From Paenarthrobacter nicotinovorans (GTDB lineage: Bacteria; Actinomycetota; Actinomycetes; Actinomycetales; Micrococcaceae): a DNA stretch of 64,000 nucleotides. Below the pieces are notes generated by a model. It ran no database searches. It was not told the DNA's origin and saw only the letters and a list, made by a program, of their open reading frames with translations. The stretch is from contig NZ_CP089293.1 of assembly GCF_021919345.1 (NCBI RefSeq), positions 1,178,001 through 1,242,000 of the forward strand, in the 5' to 3' direction. The translations under genes and the position numbers were made by a program. Shown here in pieces: positions 5,367 through 28,750 of this stretch. Numbering within the stretch: the first letter of the stretch is position 1; each line of letters opens with the position of its first letter.

Positions 5367-6475
5367 TAGCGGTCGGCGAGGAACCGGTCAGGTGCCACGC
5401 CGCCGTCGACGATGTCCTTCAGCACCCGGCCAATGGCCGGCGTGAACTTGAAACCGTGCCCCGAGAATCCGGCGCCCACCACCAACGGGCCGAAACCGTC
5501 CAGGACGAAGTCCTCCGTGGGGGTGGTGGTGTAGGTGCAGCTGATGGGAACCGCAGTGGAAGGGTCGACGCCGGGGAGCCACTCTTCCGCGTACCGCACC
5601 AGGGCTTCGAGCTGCTGGGGGATGGGCTCAAACGTGCGCTCATCAGGGTCCATGACGGGCCCGACGCCGTGCCAGCCCGCCTTGACGCCCTCTCCGGGGG
5701 TGAGCATTCCGTAGACCGGGCTGAACCAGTATTCGTAGAGCTCGTTGTTCGGGTCGGGGTCCGGATTATGGTTGAAGCTCGGCCACACCAAGGTGTTATC
5801 GGTCGGGGTGAAGTGGGCGGGCTGCTCCTGGGTGACCACCAGTGCGGGCAGCTTGACGAGGCCCTTCAGGACTTTGGGGGTCCATGCTCCAGCCGTCACC
5901 ACCACGCGGTTGGCGGTGTACTCGGTTTCCTCCGTCACCACCACCACCGAATCGGCGCCGTCCACCCGGATGTCCCGGACCGGCGTCGAATACTTGAAGA
6001 CCGCGCCGTGCGACTCCGCCGATTTCCGCAGCGCCACCAAGGCGTCAGCCGAGCGGATCCGGCCGGATCCTGGCACAAAGAGGACATCGGTGGAGAAGTT
6101 CATGCCCCGCCAACGGTCCGCGGCCTCGTCGGCGGACATGAAGTAGCTCTCGATGCCGCGTTCCTGGTGTGCTTCCCGCACCAGTTCCAGCTTGGGGATG
6201 TTGCCATGGTTGGCCAAGCCCACGAGGTCCAGCAGCGGCGCCCCGTTTTCTGCCGCGAGCTCGTCCCAGAGGGTCTTGGACTCTGCGAGGAGGTCAAGGT
6301 AGTCGGCCTCGGCGTAGGCGGTGTTGAAGTTGCGGGTTGCTCCGTGGGAGGCGCCGATGTGGTGGCCGGCCTCGAACTGTTCCAGCAGGACCACCGAACG
6401 TCCGGAGCGGGACAACTGCCATGCAGCGGCCGATCCCATGGCTCCTCCGCCAACAACTACAACATCAACCTGCAT
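5366..6475 (-). CDS. MSOX/SolA-type FAD amine oxidase (sarcosine or N-methyl amino acid oxidase-like)
   Basis: A 369-residue DAO-superfamily flavoprotein; monomeric sarcosine oxidase and N-methyltryptophan oxidase are about 370-390 aa. The N-terminal dinucleotide fold VVVVGGGAMGSAAAW begins at the chosen ATG (6475), which has GGAG 5 bases upstream; an in-frame extension to 6529 has no such support. The Cys in SCTYTTTPTEDF matches the position of the covalent-FAD cysteine of SolA/MSOX. Expected reaction: oxidation of a secondary or primary amine with H2O2 release. It lies 106 bases downstream of phnE in the same orientation, so a role in aminophosphonate or N-methyl-amine use is plausible but inferred. 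Substrate unknown. Confidence 0.85.
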   Translation of the reverse strand: MQVDVVVVGGGAMGSAAAWQLSRSGRSVVLLEQFEAGHHIGASHGATRNFNTAYAEADYLDLLAESKTLWDELAAENGAPLLDLVGLANHGNIPKLELVREAHQERGIESYFMSADEAADRWRGMNFSTDVLFVPGSGRIRSADALVALRKSAESHGAVFKYSTPVRDIRVDGADSVVVVTEETEYTANRVVVTAGAWTPKVLKGLVKLPALVVTQEQPAHFTPTDNTLVWPSFNHNPDPDPNNELYEYWFSPVYGMLTPGEGVKAGWHGVGPVMDPDERTFEPIPQQLEALVRYAEEWLPGVDPSTAVPISCTYTTTPTEDFVLDGFGPLVVGAGFSGHGFKFTPAIGRVLKDIVDGGVAPDRFLADR

Positions 6476-21753: not shown

Positions 21754-22599
21754 ATGATGCTGCTCGCAATCCTGCAGGCGAACGCCTCCGTCATGGACGT
21801 GGACGCCAACCTGCGCACAATCGAGGACGCAGCCCAGCGTGCTTCCAGCGCGGGAGCTGCTCTGCTGCTCACCCCGGAGCTGTTCCCTGTTGGTTACGCG
21901 CCACTGCGCCTGCATGCCGAGTTGGACCCCGCCACTTTGCCGGCAGTTCGCGAACGCTTGGCCGGGATCGCGCGCACTCACGGCATTGGCTTGGTCTACA
22001 GCCTGCCGGCCGTCGCCCCCAAGGAGGCAGCACACGACGACGCCGCGCAGCCGGCTTTGGCCGGCGACGCCTGGCACATCACGGCCACTTTGCTGGACGC
22101 TTCGGGCGATGAAATCCTCAATTACGCCAAGGTCCACCTCTTCGGTCCGGAGGAACACAAGGCGTTCGTCGGCGCCCAGGTACCTCCCGCCGTCGTGGAT
22201 TTCAACGGAATCCGCACGTCGATGCTGATCTGCTACGACGTCGAGTTCCCTGAAGCAGTGCGTGCCGCGGCCACCCGCGGTGCTGAACTCCTGCTGGTGC
22301 CGACAGCCCTTTCCGCCGGGTTCGAGAACGTGCCGCAAGTCCTCATCCGCGCCAGAGCGTTGGAAAGCCAGCTCAACGTGGCCTACGCCAACCATTCCGG
22401 CCACGAGGACATCTACAACTTCCTGGGCGGCAGCGTGGTGGCCGGTCCTGACGGTTCGCTGCTCGCCGCCGCGGGGGAGGGCGCAGCGTTGTTGTTCGCG
22501 GAGGTCGGTACGGAAACGGTCAAGGCCGCCCGTGACGAAGTCCCGTACCTGCGCGAACGCAGGCCGGAACTGTACAGCGAGTGGGAGCAGCAGGCCTAG
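21754..22599 (+). CDS. davA: Nitrilase-superfamily amidase, probable 5-aminovaleramide amidase (DavA)
   Basis: C-N hydrolase (281 aa) with the Glu-Lys-Cys triad: Glu42 in LTPELF, Lys126 in NYAKVHLFGPEE, Cys160 in MLICYDVEFPEA. The family opens amides. DavA of Pseudomonas converts 5-aminovaleramide, the product of lysine 2-monooxygenase, to 5-aminovalerate; a strong davB homologue 4.4 kb away makes this the best assignment. ATG 21754 or 21757 both follow AAGGTGG. The stop codon TAG overlaps the stop codon of the convergent PucR gene within CTAG (22596-22599). Other amide substrates remain possible. Confidence 0.8.
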   Translation: MMLLAILQANASVMDVDANLRTIEDAAQRASSAGAALLLTPELFPVGYAPLRLHAELDPATLPAVRERLAGIARTHGIGLVYSLPAVAPKEAAHDDAAQPALAGDAWHITATLLDASGDEILNYAKVHLFGPEEHKAFVGAQVPPAVVDFNGIRTSMLICYDVEFPEAVRAAATRGAELLLVPTALSAGFENVPQVLIRARALESQLNVAYANHSGHEDIYNFLGGSVVAGPDGSLLAAAGEGAALLFAEVGTETVKAARDEVPYLRERRPELYSEWEQQA

Positions 22600-24203
22600 G
22601 CAGTGGCCTCCCGGTCCGCCGTCACCAATCCGTCCACGTACTGCAGCGCGAACCACAACTCTGCCCGTACCTGCGCCTGGTTGAGGTCCATGTCCAGCAG
22701 CTCCCCGAGGACGCCGATCTGCCGGCGCACACTGTTCCGGTGCAGGCCGAGCAATTTGGCGGAGCCGTCCCAACTTCCGTTTTCGCTGAGCCATCCCCGC
22801 AGCACGGACAGCAGCGGATCCCTGCGGTCCGGTTCCAACGCCAGCACGGGCGCCAGAAGCCGCTCGGCCAGCATGGTCCCCGCTTCGCGTCCCAGAAGGC
22901 CGGTGACCGACCACGTCACCTCGTCCACGCGTGCGCTCATGCCACTGGAGACAACCCGGGACCGCAGGGAGCTTGCCCGCTGGTAGGCCGCTGAGAGCCC
23001 GTGAAGTTCCGTCGGTTCGCCAATCACCAGGCGCCAGCCCAGTTTTTCGATGTCGGCCAGCAGCGAATCATCGACCCTCAAACGGGTGATCGCCGCGAAA
23101 CCGTACTCGGTGATCTCCACCAGCTTGGTGTCGAGCAGACGCCGCCATTGGAGCACCTCGCGGACGGGACCGTCGTCGGCCGCCCCATCCACCCGGACAC
23201 CCTGCACCACCCGCATCTGCGCCGACCTGGTGGACGACAAACTCTGTGCCAGCAGGTCCTTGAGGCCGTTGACGTGCTTGGTCCCGCCGGTAGCCAGGGA
23301 GTCCGGATGAAGCAACACCGCGGTGGCGAGCTGGCTCGGAGCCAGGGATCCGCTGGTTCGTTGCCGCACCAGCAGTTCCAGCAATCCCACGGCCGACTGC
23401 ACCACGTTGTTCTGCGCAGGTGTCAGCGGCGCGTCCGAACCGAGGATCAACGCGCCAAGGTTCGCGTCTTTGGTACTCCGCAGGGGGTGCCCAAACACCA
23501 GCGCCGATCCCGGCTGCTCAAAGCCGTCCATCTCCACGCGGGGACCGCTGCCGGACAGCAGCCGCTCCAGCATCGGTGCCAGCAGTGAATGCTCGACGCC
23601 GTTGCTGCCGCCGGCATTGTGCCCGCGTGCCCTGACCCGCCCGTCCGCCCCCACCAGCAGCGCCCACACCGGTACGCGCTGGACGAGGGCTGCCAGCAGT
23701 TCGTGTTCCGGCCTGGGGGAGAGGACCGCGCGCATGAGCTGCCGGTTGGTCTCGGCGAGCTGCCGGAAAACGCGTGCGTTGTCTGTCTCCAGAAGCTGCG
23801 AGAATTCAAGACCGATCGCGGCGAACGGGACGGACTCCGGTACCTCGAAAAGGGTGAGGTCGTGGGTGCGGCACGCTTCGACCAAGGCCTCAGGTACGGC
23901 GTCGAAGTAGGGCCTGATGCCGAACCCCAGTGCAGCGACCTTGGCGTCCACGAGCCGGCGGACGTAGGCGTCAACCTTCGCCGCCGTGCCGCCCTCCCCA
24001 AGGAAGGGCAGCCCGGCGGTGAGGAGGAATTCGCCCTCGGGCAGGTAGGGCGTGGGGTCTTCGAGCTCACTGGGTTCCACCCACCGCAGCAGCGAGCCGC
24101 CGCTGCCGCCGTCGTGAATCATTTTCAACTCGGGCGGCAGCTGCTCCAGGAACTGCTCAAGCGTGACGAAGCTCAGGCGGGCGGTGGCGGGTTCAGGCGA
24201 CAT
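22596..24203 (-). CDS. PucR-family transcriptional regulator of the lysine cluster
   Basis: A 535-residue regulator with the N-terminal PucR sensing domain (LEDPTPYLPEGEFLLTAGLPF, VAALGFGIRPYFDAVPEALVEAC) and a C-terminal PucR-type HTH (LGLHRNSVRRQIGVLGELLDMDL). The ATG at 24203 overlaps the alr stop by 11 bases and has AAGG close upstream; the in-frame extension to 24410 lies inside alr and is rejected. Probably an activator responding to an amino acid or its catabolite and acting on davA, alr and the permease-davB unit (inference from location). Confidence 0.85.
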   Translation of the reverse strand: MSPEPATARLSFVTLEQFLEQLPPELKMIHDGGSGGSLLRWVEPSELEDPTPYLPEGEFLLTAGLPFLGEGGTAAKVDAYVRRLVDAKVAALGFGIRPYFDAVPEALVEACRTHDLTLFEVPESVPFAAIGLEFSQLLETDNARVFRQLAETNRQLMRAVLSPRPEHELLAALVQRVPVWALLVGADGRVRARGHNAGGSNGVEHSLLAPMLERLLSGSGPRVEMDGFEQPGSALVFGHPLRSTKDANLGALILGSDAPLTPAQNNVVQSAVGLLELLVRQRTSGSLAPSQLATAVLLHPDSLATGGTKHVNGLKDLLAQSLSSTRSAQMRVVQGVRVDGAADDGPVREVLQWRRLLDTKLVEITEYGFAAITRLRVDDSLLADIEKLGWRLVIGEPTELHGLSAAYQRASSLRSRVVSSGMSARVDEVTWSVTGLLGREAGTMLAERLLAPVLALEPDRRDPLLSVLRGWLSENGSWDGSAKLLGLHRNSVRRQIGVLGELLDMDLNQAQVRAELWFALQYVDGLVTADREATA

Positions 24204-25425
24204 TGCCTTGCCCGGCGGCTGCCGGCTCCTGGTAGTCGGGGCATTGGTAGGCGGTAGTCGAGTAGGCACGGGGGAGGCGCGGTGCGATCCTGTTGATGAT
24301 CTCGTCTCCATGGCTGCCGATCGCGGCACCCCAGTCGTCGGCGCTCGCCGCTCCGCTGGAGGGATCGCCGAACAGCACGGCGGTGTCTCCCACTGCGATT
24401 CCGGACGCATCCGGCCCGAGGTCCACCATGAACTGGTCCATGCAGACCTTGCCGATTACCGGCACGCTGCGGCCAGCGATGTTCACCACCGAGCGTCCGC
24501 TGATGCCCTTGGGAATGCCGTCCGCGTAACCGAGCGGGATGAGCCCCAGATACCGGGGTTCGTAGGTGATGGCCTGGTGTTCGTAGCTGACCCCGGTGCC
24601 CGCTGGGACCTTTTTCACCATGACCAGCGGCGCAGTCACGCTCAGCGCCGGGCGCAGCCCGAAGTCCGCCGGGTTGAGGTGGTCCGCCGGAGCGAGGCCA
24701 TAGATTGCCAGCCCTGCGCGGACCATGTCGAAGTGGAATTCGGGGCGGTCCAGGATGTTGGCGGAGCTGGAAACGTGCCGCAGTTCCGGGGTCAGCCCGG
24801 CGTCACGGGCTTCACGGACGGCGTCCTCGAACTCGGCGACGGCGGCTGCGTTGCCAGGGTGTGCCGGGACATCGGCCCAGGCCAGGTGGGTCCAGAGGCC
24901 GCGGACGCGGAGGGTTCCGTCGATTTCGGCTTGCCGCGCGTGCGCCACGAGTTCCGCCCAGTCTTCCTTGCGCGCGCCGCCACGGCTGAGGCCGCTGTCC
25001 AGTTCGAGATGGACGACGGCGGGGCGGCCAAGGCGGCCGGCGATACCCGCCAGGACCTCCAGTTGGCCAACGCTCCCGAGGGACACGTCGATGTCGTTTT
25101 CCAGCGCCTCGAGAATGGTGGCACTTGTCTGGGATGCCAGATAGAGCCAGGAAAGGATGGGCAGGGTGATGCCTGCTTTGCGGAGGGCGATGGCTTCCGT
25201 GAGTTGGGCTGTTCCCAACCAATCGGCCCCGGCATCGGCAGCAGTTCGGGCCACTTCCACCAGGCCGTGCCCATAGGCGTTGCCCTTCACCACGGCCATG
25301 AAGAACGGCGCCTCGGTGCGCTGTTTCAGGGCCTTGACGTTGTCTGAAATGGCGGACAGGTCAACGGTGACCTGTCCGGAGAGGGCCGCTGGGGCAGCCT
25401 CTTGATAGTGTGCATTACGTCTCAT
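24193..25425 (-). CDS. Alanine racemase-fold PLP enzyme (amino acid racemase, possibly for lysine)
   Basis: Fold-type III PLP racemase (410 aa). The PLP lysine is Lys47 in VVKGNAYGHG, where the usual motif is VVKANAYGHG; the second catalytic residue is Tyr281 in GTGVSYEHQ; HFDMVRAGLAIYG and IGKVCMDQFMVDLG are further signatures. It is not next to cell-wall genes but is coupled to the PucR gene and divergent from a lysine-type permease. Interconverting D- and L-lysine (or alanine) to feed DavB is plausible. The Ala-to-Gly change beside the lysine and the SSSANIL segment (usually ANSAA) hint at altered specificity. Confidence 0.85.
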   Translation of the reverse strand: MRRNAHYQEAAPAALSGQVTVDLSAISDNVKALKQRTEAPFFMAVVKGNAYGHGLVEVARTAADAGADWLGTAQLTEAIALRKAGITLPILSWLYLASQTSATILEALENDIDVSLGSVGQLEVLAGIAGRLGRPAVVHLELDSGLSRGGARKEDWAELVAHARQAEIDGTLRVRGLWTHLAWADVPAHPGNAAAVAEFEDAVREARDAGLTPELRHVSSSANILDRPEFHFDMVRAGLAIYGLAPADHLNPADFGLRPALSVTAPLVMVKKVPAGTGVSYEHQAITYEPRYLGLIPLGYADGIPKGISGRSVVNIAGRSVPVIGKVCMDQFMVDLGPDASGIAVGDTAVLFGDPSSGAASADDWGAAIGSHGDEIINRIAPRLPRAYSTTAYQCPDYQEPAAAGQGNVA

Positions 25426-25456
25426 GGTTGAACACTATAGGTCATTTTGCACCGTG

Positions 25457-25472
25457 GTGAGAGGTGGCTCAC
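25457..25472. promoter_or_regulatory. Inverted repeat in the alr / permease divergent promoter
   Basis: GTGAG-N6-CTCAC lies between the two divergent starts. On the minus strand TATAGT (25434-25439) is a -10 for alr eight bases before its ATG, and this repeat overlaps the matching -35 zone. Candidate binding site for the PucR regulator. Confidence 0.45.
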
Positions 25473-25523
25473 ATGCCAGTCTTGTGGAGGGGAAATCGAA
25501 ACTACTTTGAAGGGACGTCAAGG

Positions 25524-27050
25524 GTGACTGTGCCTGTGAACACCGAAAATCCAGCGGCGGTGGGCGCTGCGAGGCCGAGCCTCGGAGCCCAGTTGCTGCG
25601 CCGAAAGCCCATTGGGCAGATGGTCAGCGAGTCCGGCAGCGGCGAAGGCGGCACTCCGCTGGTCCGCAGCTTCGGCGTGCTGCAGCTGACCATGATCAGC
25701 GTTGGTGCCACGCTCGGCACCGGCATCCTCGTCATTCTCGGCGAATCCGTTCCGCTGGCAGGTCCGGCCATCTGGATCTCCTTTGTCATCGCGGGTCTGG
25801 CTGCGCTGCTCTCTGCTGTGTCGTACGCGGAGATGGCCGGGCTGGTCCCGGTGGCAGGCTCCAGTTACTCCTATTCCTACGCCACCATGGGCGAGGGCAT
25901 GGCGTGGATCTGCGGCTGGTGCCTGGTGCTGGAGTATGCCGTCTCCGTGGCAGCAGTTGCCGTCGGCGCCGGACAGTACGTCAATGAGACCCTGGCCGCC
26001 TTTGGGCAGGTCCTTCCGGACGCGTTGTCCCAACCTCCGGGGGATGGCGGCCTGGTCAACATACCGGCCGTGGTGATCGTGGTCTTCGCCATGATCCTGC
26101 TGGTCAGGGGCGCCCGCGAGAGTGCGTGGATCAACACAGCGATTGTCATCATCAAGGTGGGCATCCTGATCTTCTTCTGCGCAGTGGCTTTCACGGCTTT
26201 CAATGCCGGCAACTTCGAGCCCCTGCTGCCCATGGGCGCCGCAGGTGTTTCGGCAGCCGCCTCCAGCGTCTTCTTCTCCTACATCGGCTTTGACGCCGCC
26301 TCCACGGCAGGGGAAGAGGCCAGGAACCCTAAGCGTGACCTTCCCAGGGCCATCATGCTGTCCATGGTGATCGTCACCAGCATCTACGTCCTCGTATCCG
26401 TGGCCGCCATCGGCGCCCGCCCGTGGGGATGGTTCGACGGTACAGAAGCTGCCCTGGTGCAGATCCTGCACGAGATCACCGGCCAGCCCTGGATCGCCCT
26501 GGTCTTCTCCATCGGTGCTGTGCTCGCCATCGCCAGCATCGTCCTGACGGTCCTCTACGGCCAGACGCGCATCATGCTGTCCATGTCCCGCGACGGCATG
26601 GTGCCCAAAATCTTCGGCCGCGTCTCCCCGCGGACCGGCACTCCGGTGGCGGGAACGCTCATCATCGGCACCGCCGTCGCCCTCACTGCGGGCCTTGTCC
26701 CGCTGGGCGCGCTGGCGGACGCCACCAGCATCGGCACGCTGTTTGCCTTTGCCCTGGTCAATGTCGCCGTGATCTACCTGCGACGCAACCGCCCGGACCT
26801 CGAGCGAAGCTTCCGCGTTCCCCTATACCCGGTCACGCCGATCCTCGGCGCCCTGATGTGCGCCTACCTGATGCTCAACCTCGGCGCAGATACCTGGATC
26901 ACCTTTGGGGTGTGGATGCTGGTGGGCATCGCCGTCTACTTCGGCTATGGACGCCGGAACTCCAAGGTAGCCGCGCTCAGCGAGCAGGACTACCGTGAAA
27001 TGACCACCAGGGCCATGAGCCCGGAACCTGTGAAAGCAGCAAAACCATGA
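25524..27050 (+). CDS. APC-superfamily cationic amino acid transporter, probable lysine permease
   Basis: Membrane transporter (508 aa) with about 12-14 hydrophobic helices. It opens with LLRRKPIGQMV and the APC signature LTMISVGATLGTGILVILG, then SYIGFDAASTAGEEARNPKRDLPRAI, a motif of the cationic amino acid transporter (CAT) group. The GTG at 25524 is chosen since AAGGGA lies eight bases upstream; the longer form adds a polar tail. The stop overlaps the davB start (ATGA, 27047-27050), so uptake and oxidation are translationally coupled. Lysine as substrate is inferred from this coupling. Confidence 0.85.
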   Translation: MTVPVNTENPAAVGAARPSLGAQLLRRKPIGQMVSESGSGEGGTPLVRSFGVLQLTMISVGATLGTGILVILGESVPLAGPAIWISFVIAGLAALLSAVSYAEMAGLVPVAGSSYSYSYATMGEGMAWICGWCLVLEYAVSVAAVAVGAGQYVNETLAAFGQVLPDALSQPPGDGGLVNIPAVVIVVFAMILLVRGARESAWINTAIVIIKVGILIFFCAVAFTAFNAGNFEPLLPMGAAGVSAAASSVFFSYIGFDAASTAGEEARNPKRDLPRAIMLSMVIVTSIYVLVSVAAIGARPWGWFDGTEAALVQILHEITGQPWIALVFSIGAVLAIASIVLTVLYGQTRIMLSMSRDGMVPKIFGRVSPRTGTPVAGTLIIGTAVALTAGLVPLGALADATSIGTLFAFALVNVAVIYLRRNRPDLERSFRVPLYPVTPILGALMCAYLMLNLGADTWITFGVWMLVGIAVYFGYGRRNSKVAALSEQDYREMTTRAMSPEPVKAAKP

Positions 27051-28750
27051 CCATCGCCACCGAACTTCCCGTCGCCGGGGAACCCGCAGCACCCGGCGCT
27101 AGTGAAGCGCCGATCACCATGCTGAACCCGGACTTCCCCTTCAGCTACGACCACTACCTGGCACACCCGGACGGGCTTGGCTCCGTCCCGGAGGAAATGT
27201 ACGGCACCGAAGTCGCCGTCATCGGTGCGGGCCTCTCCGGACTCGTGACCGCCTACGAACTCATGAAGCTTGGCCTCAAACCGGTCATTTACGAGGCCGA
27301 CCAGATCGGTGGCCGGCTCCGGACCGCGAGCTTCCCGTCCGCGCCCGGCGTCGTAGCCGACCTCGGCGGCATGCGCTTCCCGGTTTCCGGCAAGGCGTTC
27401 TACCACTACGTGGACCTCCTGGGGCTGGACACCAACGAATTCCCCAACCCCATGGCACCGGCAACATCCAGCACTGTGATCGAGCTCGCGGGCAAGAAGC
27501 ATTACGCCACCACCGCCGAAGAACTGCCCGTGTTCTTCCGCGAAGTTGCCGACGCCTGGAAAGCCGCGATCAACGACGGCGCAGCCTTCGCGGAGATGCA
27601 GGAAGCCATCAAGGCCCGTGACACCAAGCGGATCAAGGAACTGTGGAACGCGCTCCTGCCCGAACTCGACGAGCAGACCTTCTACGGCTTCATCGCTGCC
27701 AGCAAGTCGTTCAAGGAAGCCGGCTTCGCCCACCGCGAGGCATTCGGCCAGGTCGGCTTCGGCACGGGCGGTTGGGACACCGACTTCCCCAACTCCATCC
27801 TCGAGATCCTGCGCGTCGTGTACACCGACGCCGACGACCAGCACCGCTCCATTTCGGGAGGCGCGCAAAGGCTCCCGGAGGCACTTTGGAACCACGCGCC
27901 GTCGGGCCTGAAGCACTGGCCGGAAGGAACCTCTCTGGCCTCCCTGCACTCAGGTTCGCCGCGCGGGGCCGTGGACAACATCCGCCGGGCAGAGAACGGC
28001 GACCTCGTGGTGCGGGAAAACTGGGGACGCGAAGCCAGCTACCAGGCCGTGGTCACCACATGCCAGTCGTGGCTGCTCTCCACCCGTATCCACACCGAAG
28101 AGGCACTGTTCCCCGCGGAGATGTGGACCGCGATCGAACGCTCGCACTACATGCAGTCGTCCAAGACCTTCGTGATGGTGGACCGGCCGTTCTGGAAGGA
28201 CAACGACCCGGAGACCGGGCGTGAAGTCTTGTCCATGACCCTCACCGACCGCCTCAACCGGGCAACGTACTTGCTCGACGACGGCCCGGACAAGCCCGCC
28301 GTCATCCTCTTGTCCTACACGTGGAACGACGACGCCCTGAAGTGGCTCGCCCTCACTGCGGAGGAGCGCGTCAAGTTGATGCTCCACTCGCTGGAGCAGA
28401 TCTATCCGGGCGTTGACATCGCGAGCCACATTGTGGGGCAGCCGATCACCGTCTCTTGGGAAGCGGACCCCAACTTCATGGGGGCCTTCAAGGCCAACCT
28501 GCCCGGACACTACCGCTACCAGCAGCGGCTGTTCACGCACTTCAAGCAGGACAAGTTGCCCGGGAACCAGCGCGGCATCTTCCTCGCCGGTGATGACGTG
28601 TCCTTCACCGCCGGCTGGGCCGAGGGCGCCGTCACCACGGGCCTGAATGCCGTCTGGGGCGTGGTGAACCACCTGGGTGGCTCGTCCGCCGCCGGAAACC
28701 CCGGCCCGGGTGACCTGCTGGACGAGCTCGGCCCGATCAGCTTGGACTAG
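27047..28750 (+). CDS. davB: L-lysine 2-monooxygenase DavB (flavin amine oxidase fold)
   Basis: FAD enzyme (567 aa) converting L-lysine and O2 to 5-aminovaleramide, CO2 and water. The N-terminal FAD motif is VIGAGLSGLVTAYELMKLG. Long stretches agree with Pseudomonas DavB as I recall it, including LGGMRFPVSGKAFYHYVDLL, GQVGFGTGGWDTDFPNS, YMQSSKTFVMVDRPFWKD, ITVSWEADPNFMGAFKANLP and GIFLAGDDVSFTAGWAEGAV, and the length is the same. Related tryptophan 2-monooxygenases (IaaM) match less well, and the amidase partner nearby is nitrilase-type, as in DavA. Coupled to the permease upstream; a hairpin follows. Confidence 0.92.
   Translation: MTIATELPVAGEPAAPGASEAPITMLNPDFPFSYDHYLAHPDGLGSVPEEMYGTEVAVIGAGLSGLVTAYELMKLGLKPVIYEADQIGGRLRTASFPSAPGVVADLGGMRFPVSGKAFYHYVDLLGLDTNEFPNPMAPATSSTVIELAGKKHYATTAEELPVFFREVADAWKAAINDGAAFAEMQEAIKARDTKRIKELWNALLPELDEQTFYGFIAASKSFKEAGFAHREAFGQVGFGTGGWDTDFPNSILEILRVVYTDADDQHRSISGGAQRLPEALWNHAPSGLKHWPEGTSLASLHSGSPRGAVDNIRRAENGDLVVRENWGREASYQAVVTTCQSWLLSTRIHTEEALFPAEMWTAIERSHYMQSSKTFVMVDRPFWKDNDPETGREVLSMTLTDRLNRATYLLDDGPDKPAVILLSYTWNDDALKWLALTAEERVKLMLHSLEQIYPGVDIASHIVGQPITVSWEADPNFMGAFKANLPGHYRYQQRLFTHFKQDKLPGNQRGIFLAGDDVSFTAGWAEGAVTTGLNAVWGVVNHLGGSSAAGNPGPGDLLDELGPISLD

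Follow-up and report, generated by a model that had tools for sequence, protein, structure and literature searches.

L-arginine 2-monooxygenase is classified as EC 1.13.12.1. In Streptomyces, arginine is described as being converted by arginine monooxygenase to 4-guanidinobutyramide, which a hydrolase turns into 4-guanidinobutyrate (PMC5082578, PMC10322714), both enzymes belonging to the azalomycin starter pathway (PMC5082578). The L-amino acid oxidase/monooxygenase (L-AAO/MOG) of Pseudomonas sp. AIU 813 binds lysine, ornithine and arginine through Asp238, the residue reported to hold the terminal positive group, and as a lysine enzyme is weak on arginine (6% relative oxidase activity); wider pockets in enzymes for larger substrates are attributed to replacement of Trp235 by Phe and of Ala515 by Gly (PMC5832979). 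Arthrobacter sp. KUJ 8602 has a known guanidinobutyrase (cited in PMC11271267). Among the titles and abstracts found in the open-access literature, none reports an arginine oxygenase gene from Arthrobacter, and older biochemical work may fall outside them.

The window, a stretch of 64,000 nucleotides from the chromosome of Paenarthrobacter nicotinovorans, holds a five-gene locus that an earlier note had read as a lysine-to-5-aminovalerate cluster. Judging from its sequence, we put at roughly three in four the probability that this locus serves the import and breakdown of L-arginine through the guanidinobutyramide (arginine oxygenase) route. The pathway itself is of a known type, and its genes are easily misnamed. 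All five genes lie where the earlier note had placed them and have intact frames in this Paenarthrobacter-like chromosome:

21754..22599, plus strand: amidase of the nitrilase superfamily, probable 4-guanidinobutyramide amidohydrolase, called DavA-like in the earlier note (PF00795, motifs, co-occurrence)
22596..24203, minus strand: PucR-family transcriptional regulator (PF07905 and PF13556; the open frame extends to 24410)
24193..25425, minus strand: alanine-racemase-type PLP enzyme, optional at the locus (TIGR00492, PDB matches)
25464..27050, plus strand: amino acid permease of the APC superfamily, cationic or branched-chain group (PF13520; GTG start uncertain)
27047..28750, plus strand: flavin amino-acid 2-monooxygenase, probable L-arginine 2-monooxygenase, called DavB in the earlier note (identity to the AIU 813 enzyme, residues)

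The Pfam scores of all five proteins are far above the curated cut-offs. The permease stop overlaps the flavoenzyme start in an ATGA at 27047-27050, this being the pair that the earlier note called translationally coupled. The amidase and pucR genes meet tail to tail with an overlap of 4 bp; ATG 21754 is a possible amidase start, as proposed before, and so is GTG 21748. For pucR, the most likely start is ATG 24203, inferred from the 11-bp overlap that it gives with the racemase stop.

Related loci were fetched by the flavoenzyme, and the best 80 of 168 found come from Arthrobacter, Paenarthrobacter and Pseudarthrobacter, one being listed only as Micrococcaceae. In these best 80 loci the permease is kept in 79, pucR in 78 and the amidase, within the roughly 8 kb read, in 67; thus, the gene arrangement is not due to chance. 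The racemase is found in 33 of the same 80 loci, with one of the 80 too short to tell. Among 37 genus members, the monooxygenase and the amidase occur in the same 33 (amidase in 33/33 members with the monooxygenase and 0/4 without it), which bears out both the enzyme class and the monooxygenase/amidase pairing proposed earlier. An apparent absence of the amidase from G012 and G022 was dropped, since a whole-genome search placed it 8-9 kb from the monooxygenase. The reaction class is probably amino acid to amide to acid. We found that a PF00795-type amidase is situated directly upstream of the flavoenzyme in 11/11 Streptomyces-like loci, whereas the Paenarthrobacter amidase is convergent and set apart by pucR and the racemase gene. 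The regulators differ as well: Paenarthrobacter has PucR, whereas 7 of 14 compared loci contain an Lrp/AsnC-type gene (one scanned).

The flavoenzyme of 567 residues (Amino_oxidase, 175.3 bits) has the AIU 813 L-AAO/MOG as its best solved relative, with 817 bits over 551 residues and 60.8% identity, and the alignment (61% identity) is free of gaps near the pocket. The two proteins share the fold family, Asp238 and residues R102, W235, Y416, W418, F473 and W516, the retention of Trp235 counting against the arginine reading. This identity and the kept Asp238 are in line with the earlier proposal, by which DavB and DavA would convert L-lysine to 5-aminovalerate and GabT/GabD-like enzymes would finish the route as DavT/DavD. 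So is the pairing with a PF00795 amidase, a neighbour by which published genome mining tells lysine from tryptophan enzymes (PMC12462448). Yet, we regard this proposal as unlikely, and the substrate is probably not lysine. At positions 237, 254, 258 and 515 the AIU 813 enzyme has S, C, Q and A, and the window flavoenzyme carries the changes S237T, C254A, Q258H and A515G, so that in place of the lysine-type pocket region (S237, Q258, A515) it shows T237, H258 and G515. T237, A254, H258 and G515, together with Asp238, are present in 80/80 named loci (the best 80 of 168), and these five positions are identical in all 120 listed of 3,526 Streptomyces-type homologues. The pattern T237/A254/H258/G515 also recurs in four of the five homologues found beside ureohydrolases, the exception being G211 (A237, F254, Q258). 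Seven alphaproteobacterial homologues and G263 possess S237, L or F254, Q258 and A515. Gly515 is not specific, as a tryptophan-type outgroup and an Asn238 type carry it too, and the pocket-region residues follow the tree and may therefore reflect descent rather than function. The Streptomyces label of the G genomes rests on the database names of 82-90% identical proteins, and the Streptomyces-type sequences are tied to the enzyme tested in print by genus and family, not by sequence match. Some database records call relatives of the locus proteins lysine 2-monooxygenase, tryptophan 2-monooxygenase or 5-aminopentanamidase.

The gene context of the relatives bears on the substrate as well. A PF00491 ureohydrolase is located near the monooxygenase in 5 of 27 loci that are not of the window's type (Tsukamurella, G042, G049, G361 and G211), while in 11/11 Streptomyces-like loci and in the window it lies outside the locus. 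Ureohydrolases are useful for guanidino compounds and have no evident use for 5-aminovalerate, which favours arginine; it is these neighbours, along with the pocket residues, that speak against the lysine assignment. In Tsukamurella and G361 the PF01593-PF00795 pairing itself stands beside ureohydrolases and is therefore not specific to lysine. The sister locus, in genome G361, clusters an amidase, a monooxygenase, a guanidinobutyrase-type ureohydrolase, a TPP enzyme that scores best in NCBIfam, though below cut-off, with 5-guanidino-2-oxopentanoate decarboxylase, two SSADH-like aldehyde dehydrogenases (below cut-off) and a GABA transaminase present only in part; it looks like a near-complete arginine-to-succinate set. 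Homologues of these pathway genes are found elsewhere in the P. nicotinovorans genome, including a ureohydrolase-TPP enzyme pair as in G361, with a 4-bp overlap.

An enzyme able to act on both L-lysine and L-arginine, and perhaps on ornithine, homoarginine or canavanine, would be a broad basic-amino-acid 2-monooxygenase served by a permissive amidase. It would agree with the binding of Lys, Orn and Arg through Asp238 in AIU 813, with Gly515, whose wider pocket would still admit lysine, and with the scoring of the permease as cationic or branched-chain type; the weak arginine activity reported for the lysine enzyme (PMC5832979) would likewise allow dual use. However, the ureohydrolase linkage in relatives suggests that selection acts on the use of a guanidino substrate, and we consider such breadth even less probable than a lysine route.

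The genome's own PF00491 ureohydrolase (C1:1038668-1039789) is 68% identical to that of G361 and closest to guanidinobutyrase 3nio (278 bits), while its NCBIfam name, above cut-off, is agmatinase. The Zn-guanidinobutyrase/D-arginase of Arthrobacter sp. KUJ 8602 (cited in PMC11271267) is another known enzyme of this kind. The candidate gene of this genome lies about 160 kb from the locus. Among 396 sampled genomes, such a ureohydrolase is present in 16/16 with the monooxygenase versus 52/380 others, with 11 of the 16 belonging to one genus. Within the genus its presence is uninformative as a test, since 36/37 members have a guanidinobutyrase, including the four without monooxygenase. G013, G015, G018 and G024 carry the ureohydrolase without the monooxygenase, and G033 has monooxygenase and amidase with no ureohydrolase match at E 1e-70. 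A weak ureohydrolase match (42%) accompanies G263 too, the genome with lysine-type residues. For the later steps, gabT (C1 about 3.195 Mb) and aldehyde dehydrogenase genes are present and indistinguishable from DavT/DavD, which would suit lysine degradation as well. CsiD, the one glutarate gene looked for and the start of one of two known glutarate routes, was not found in this genome, a slight point against lysine that covers this one route.

In the arginine route that we favour, the permease would import a cationic amino acid, and the FAD enzyme would use O2 to oxidize and decarboxylate L-arginine, with 4-guanidinobutyramide, CO2 and water as products. The amidase would then release ammonia to give 4-guanidinobutyrate, the guanidinobutyrase-type enzyme would split this into GABA and urea, and GabT with a dehydrogenase would turn the GABA into succinate. 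The operon of permease and monooxygenase is probably under PucR control. The genes, their overlaps and residues, their conservation and co-occurrence, and the clustering with guanidino-compound genes in relatives are observed; from these we infer the substrate, the products, the regulation and which dehydrogenase acts last.

The amidase matches CN_hydrolase (PF00795) with 136.6 bits, and its best PDB match is a named aliphatic amidase (219.7 bits). Its motifs TPEL, AKVHLF and ICYDVEF, which we take to be the Glu-Lys-Cys catalytic triad motifs of the family, align with those of 15 relatives, in keeping with the intact triad described earlier. Its closest relative is the G361 amidase (50%); it is about equally distant from the Streptomyces-like (39-43%), type II (42-43%), Tsukamurella (39%) and alphaproteobacterial (34-41%) amidases, and by itself is not enough to settle the substrate.

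The permease (AA_permease_2, PF13520, 202.3 bits) scores below all specific cut-offs (BcaP, 500 of 690; TIGR00909, 495 of 556.8; cationic TIGR00906, 311 of 681.7) and shows 60-62% identity to the permeases of five Streptomyces-like loci, or 59-62% when that of the Tsukamurella locus is included. Both PucR domains, PF07905 (68.9 bits) and PF13556 (HTH_30, 46.6 bits), are above cut-off. In the same genome, PucR genes also stand beside gabT/aldehyde-dehydrogenase genes, and another is next to a transporter and a second ureohydrolase; the PucR pairing, held to be unusual before, thus recurs at related loci.

By its matches, the racemase is of the alanine racemase type (Ala_racemase_N, 211.5 bits; Ala_racemase_C, 118.8 bits; TIGR00492, 287 bits versus a cut-off of 168) and an optional member of the locus. 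Its best solved relatives are alanine racemases (324.7 bits), much nearer than lysine racemase (85 bits) or the lysine/broad-specificity racemases taken together (85 to 104 bits). In an alignment of the three racemase copies of the genome, its AVVKGNAYGHG (PLP-lysine) and GVSY (tyrosine) motifs line up with those of the copy that adjoins tsaE at C1 2.988 Mb. Co-occurrence with the monooxygenase among the 37 genus members is not significant (14/33 versus 0/4, p 0.28). The suggested feeding of D-lysine finds no support in an enzyme of this type that is missing from most loci; possibly, it interconverts D- and L-arginine.

A second locus type (type II), with Asn238 and Gly515, was detected in three genus members (L055-L057), where its cluster also encodes an enzyme of the hydantoinase/carbamoylase family and a transporter resembling asparagine permeases. 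It may act on citrulline, which would pass through 4-ureidobutyramide and 4-ureidobutyrate to GABA, CO2 and ammonia. A speculative view, which we hold to be less likely than not, is that the monooxygenase/nitrilase module has diverged into substrate types that two pocket residues reveal: lysine (Asp238, Ala515), arginine (Asp238, Gly515, ureohydrolase end; the window's type) and an undescribed type for neutral substrates (Asn238, Gly515). All would lead to omega-amino acids, the last as a citrulline 2-monooxygenase route, and the TPP enzyme linked to the ureohydrolase would salvage 2-ketoarginine formed in an oxidase side reaction. Against the citrulline proposal, the D238N mutant of AIU 813 is reported inactive on the substrates tested (PMC5832979). 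The titles and abstracts found in the open-access literature, outside which older biochemical work may fall, report no citrulline 2-monooxygenase.

If the arginine reading is true, a PF00795 neighbour does not separate lysine from arginine enzymes in actinobacteria, and those who screen such genes for a source of the nylon precursor 5-aminovalerate would choose the wrong enzyme. The locus would then represent an arginine-using route that is widespread among soil bacteria of the Arthrobacter type.

The feature consists of five intact genes, lying in the window (genome G000, contig C1, 1178001-1242000) as follows:

21754-22599, + strand: nitrilase-type amidase
22596-24203, - strand: pucR regulator
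24193-25425, - strand: racemase
25464-27050, + strand: permease
27047-28750, + strand: flavin amino-acid 2-monooxygenase (flavoenzyme)

Two pairs of genes overlap, permease with flavoenzyme in an ATGA and racemase with pucR over 11 bp; the amidase and pucR genes converge, with their 3' ends meeting. A ROK gene and ABC transporter genes flank the feature on the left, and genes for a gamma-carbonic-anhydrase-like protein, a methyltransferase, PurU and serine hydroxymethyltransferase on the right. The five-gene cluster described in the earlier note is real: a catabolic locus that is conserved and of an ordinary kind.

Our flavoenzyme search of named genomes yielded 168 loci, of which the best 80 were retained, Paenarthrobacter loci being the closest among them. 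With a gene counted as kept at 45% identity and 60% coverage, and eight of the 80 loci short, these best 80 of 168 keep the permease in 79 cases, pucR in 78 and the racemase in 33, and the amidase turned up inside the ~8 kb read in 67; locus L079 is too short to reveal pucR or racemase. Among 37 genus members searched, 33 carry the flavoenzyme and the same 33 the amidase, while neither was found in G013, G015, G018 and G024 (Fisher 1.5e-5, kinship uncorrected); the two therefore behave as one pair. Racemase orthologues (at least 66% identity) occur in 14 of the 37, every one with the flavoenzyme, and this patchiness in both samples marks the racemase as accessory. Locus L121 holds, near position 6002, a racemase remnant (75% identity over a fifth of the gene) and no intact copy, which suggests loss of the gene. 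In genome G030 (92% completeness, 6% contamination) the monooxygenase lies in three pieces (C1:982299-983946), by sequencing errors or decay. A 93% identical monooxygenase is found on a 1.35-Mb Arthrobacter record of the plasmid collection (NZ_AP024648.1, 877897-879600); the record could be either part of a chromosome or a replicon of very large size.

The substrate, read earlier as lysine, was probably misread, as judged from the pocket residues T237/A254/H258/G515 and from the ureohydrolases in relatives' loci. The flavoenzyme is 60.8% identical to the Pseudomonas AIU 813 lysine oxidase/monooxygenase (L-AAO/MOG), whose numbering is used here. According to PMC5832979, Asp238 of that enzyme binds the positively charged end of Lys, Orn or Arg, Gln258 makes a water-mediated contact with the alpha-group, and Cys254 influences the oxidase/monooxygenase ratio, whereas enzymes acting on larger substrates have wider pockets, with Phe in place of Trp235 and Gly in place of Ala515. 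The window enzyme retains Asp238 and Trp235 and has T237, A254, H258 and G515 instead of the lysine-enzyme residues. This pattern recurs in all 80 named loci (best 80 of 168), in 11/11 Streptomyces-like loci and in the 120 Streptomyces-type proteins listed from the 3,526 that a database search gave. S237, C/L/F at 254, Q258 and A515 characterize AIU 813, G263 and seven homologues from alphaproteobacterial plasmids, a set in which a measured substrate was found for AIU 813 only. Gly515 on its own is non-diagnostic, since the tryptophan-type outgroup and the Asn238 type carry it too. A family tree built without these pocket columns (SH-aLRT support only, root unsure) has three groups: one of Streptomyces-like and Tsukamurella sequences, one of lysine type, and one made up of the window, G361, G049, G042 and the Asn238 type.

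Outside the window's own type, 27 loci were compared: 19 by translated search, Tsukamurella by translated search and annotation, and seven alphaproteobacterial loci by annotation tables only (the PLSDB tables being incomplete). Five of them (Tsukamurella, G042, G049, G361 and G211) include a PF00491 ureohydrolase. It adjoins the flavoenzyme in G042, its match stops ~24 bases ahead of the flavoenzyme match in G049, and in Tsukamurella the row reads ureohydrolase, permease, amidase, flavoenzyme. All five linked flavoenzymes have Gly515 and Asp238, and four show the full window pattern, the exception being G211 (A237, F254, Q258). In G211 (L184) an amidase-signature enzyme (PF01425) occupies the nitrilase-type slot beside ureohydrolase and monooxygenase; the G042, G049 and G263 stretches yielded no amidase of the nitrilase type. 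Within the stretches read, no ureohydrolase was found in eight Ala515, three Asn238 and 11 Streptomyces-like loci; all 11 Streptomyces-like genomes carry one elsewhere.

In the route we propose, the permease would import L-arginine, the flavoenzyme would convert it to 4-guanidinobutyramide and the amidase would yield 4-guanidinobutyrate, which a guanidinobutyrase would split into GABA and urea, with GabT and a dehydrogenase leading to succinate. The steps from arginine to 4-guanidinobutyrate are known in Streptomyces (PMC5082578, PMC10322714). Arthrobacter sp. KUJ 8602 has a Zn-guanidinobutyrase, also a D-arginase by a title cited in PMC11271267, an activity that might account for the racemase.

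G000 has three PF00491 genes, one being HutG (above cut-off, ~3 kb from hutH) and the other two both below the arginase cut-off. The ureohydrolase at C1:1038668-1039789, named agmatinase by NCBIfam above cut-off, has guanidinobutyrase 3nio as its best match (278 bits, against 266 for guanidinopropionase and 235 for agmatinase) and shares 68.5% and 63% identity with the linked G042 and Tsukamurella enzymes. Its gene overlaps by 4 bp that of a thiamine-diphosphate (TPP) enzyme (L186 5669-8493, C1 ~1.0387-1.0415 Mb), which scores 323 as 5-guanidino-2-oxopentanoate decarboxylase, below cut-off, an unnamed subfamily ranking first (348). This pairing points to a 2-ketoarginine branch, in which the TPP enzyme could turn 2-ketoarginine into the same acid if the flavoenzyme leaks oxidase product. 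A gabT gene (816 bits, above cut-off) is grouped with an aminobutyraldehyde-dehydrogenase-type gene (above cut-off) and a PucR gene; a search of the genome found no CsiD. At C1 ~4.13 Mb (L185 2905-6942), a PucR gene diverges from an MFS transporter and the second ureohydrolase, 56% identical to the first.

Of 396 genomes sampled from the phylum (cut-offs E 1e-60 for flavoenzyme, 1e-70 for ureohydrolase), 16 have the flavoenzyme, and every one of these has a ureohydrolase, which is present in 68 overall (p = 1e-13, kinship ignored, 11 of the 16 being of one genus); the matches are weak in G211 (46%) and G263 (42%). The within-genus test says little because 36 of 37 members, all except G033, carry the ureohydrolase.

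Locus L174 of G361, sister to the window's type, contains:

amidase, 49%
flavoenzyme, 74%
cupin regulator
two unassigned open frames
ureohydrolase, guanidinobutyrase-type, 68%
TPP enzyme, 60%; best NCBIfam match 5-guanidino-2-oxopentanoate decarboxylase (341.5 bits, missing the cut-off of 500)
two SSADH-like dehydrogenases, below SSADH cut-offs
GABA transaminase (gabT), partial, running off the end of the stretch

It is a candidate near-complete arginine-to-succinate cluster.

In the Asn238 type (type II; L055, L056 and L057 in G012, G022 and G019, respectively), the monooxygenase is 66-68% identical to the window's, with Asn replacing Asp238. It has a separate nitrilase-type amidase as a neighbor, together with an M20 enzyme of the hydantoinase/carbamoylase family, an HTH_30 regulator and an amino acid permease, which in L055 resembles asparagine permeases with a score below cut-off. 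Of eight genomes examined, exactly these three gave a hit for the M20 gene (E 1e-60). Type II is possibly a citrulline 2-monooxygenase route, and this Asn238 locus is a more interesting lead than the window locus.
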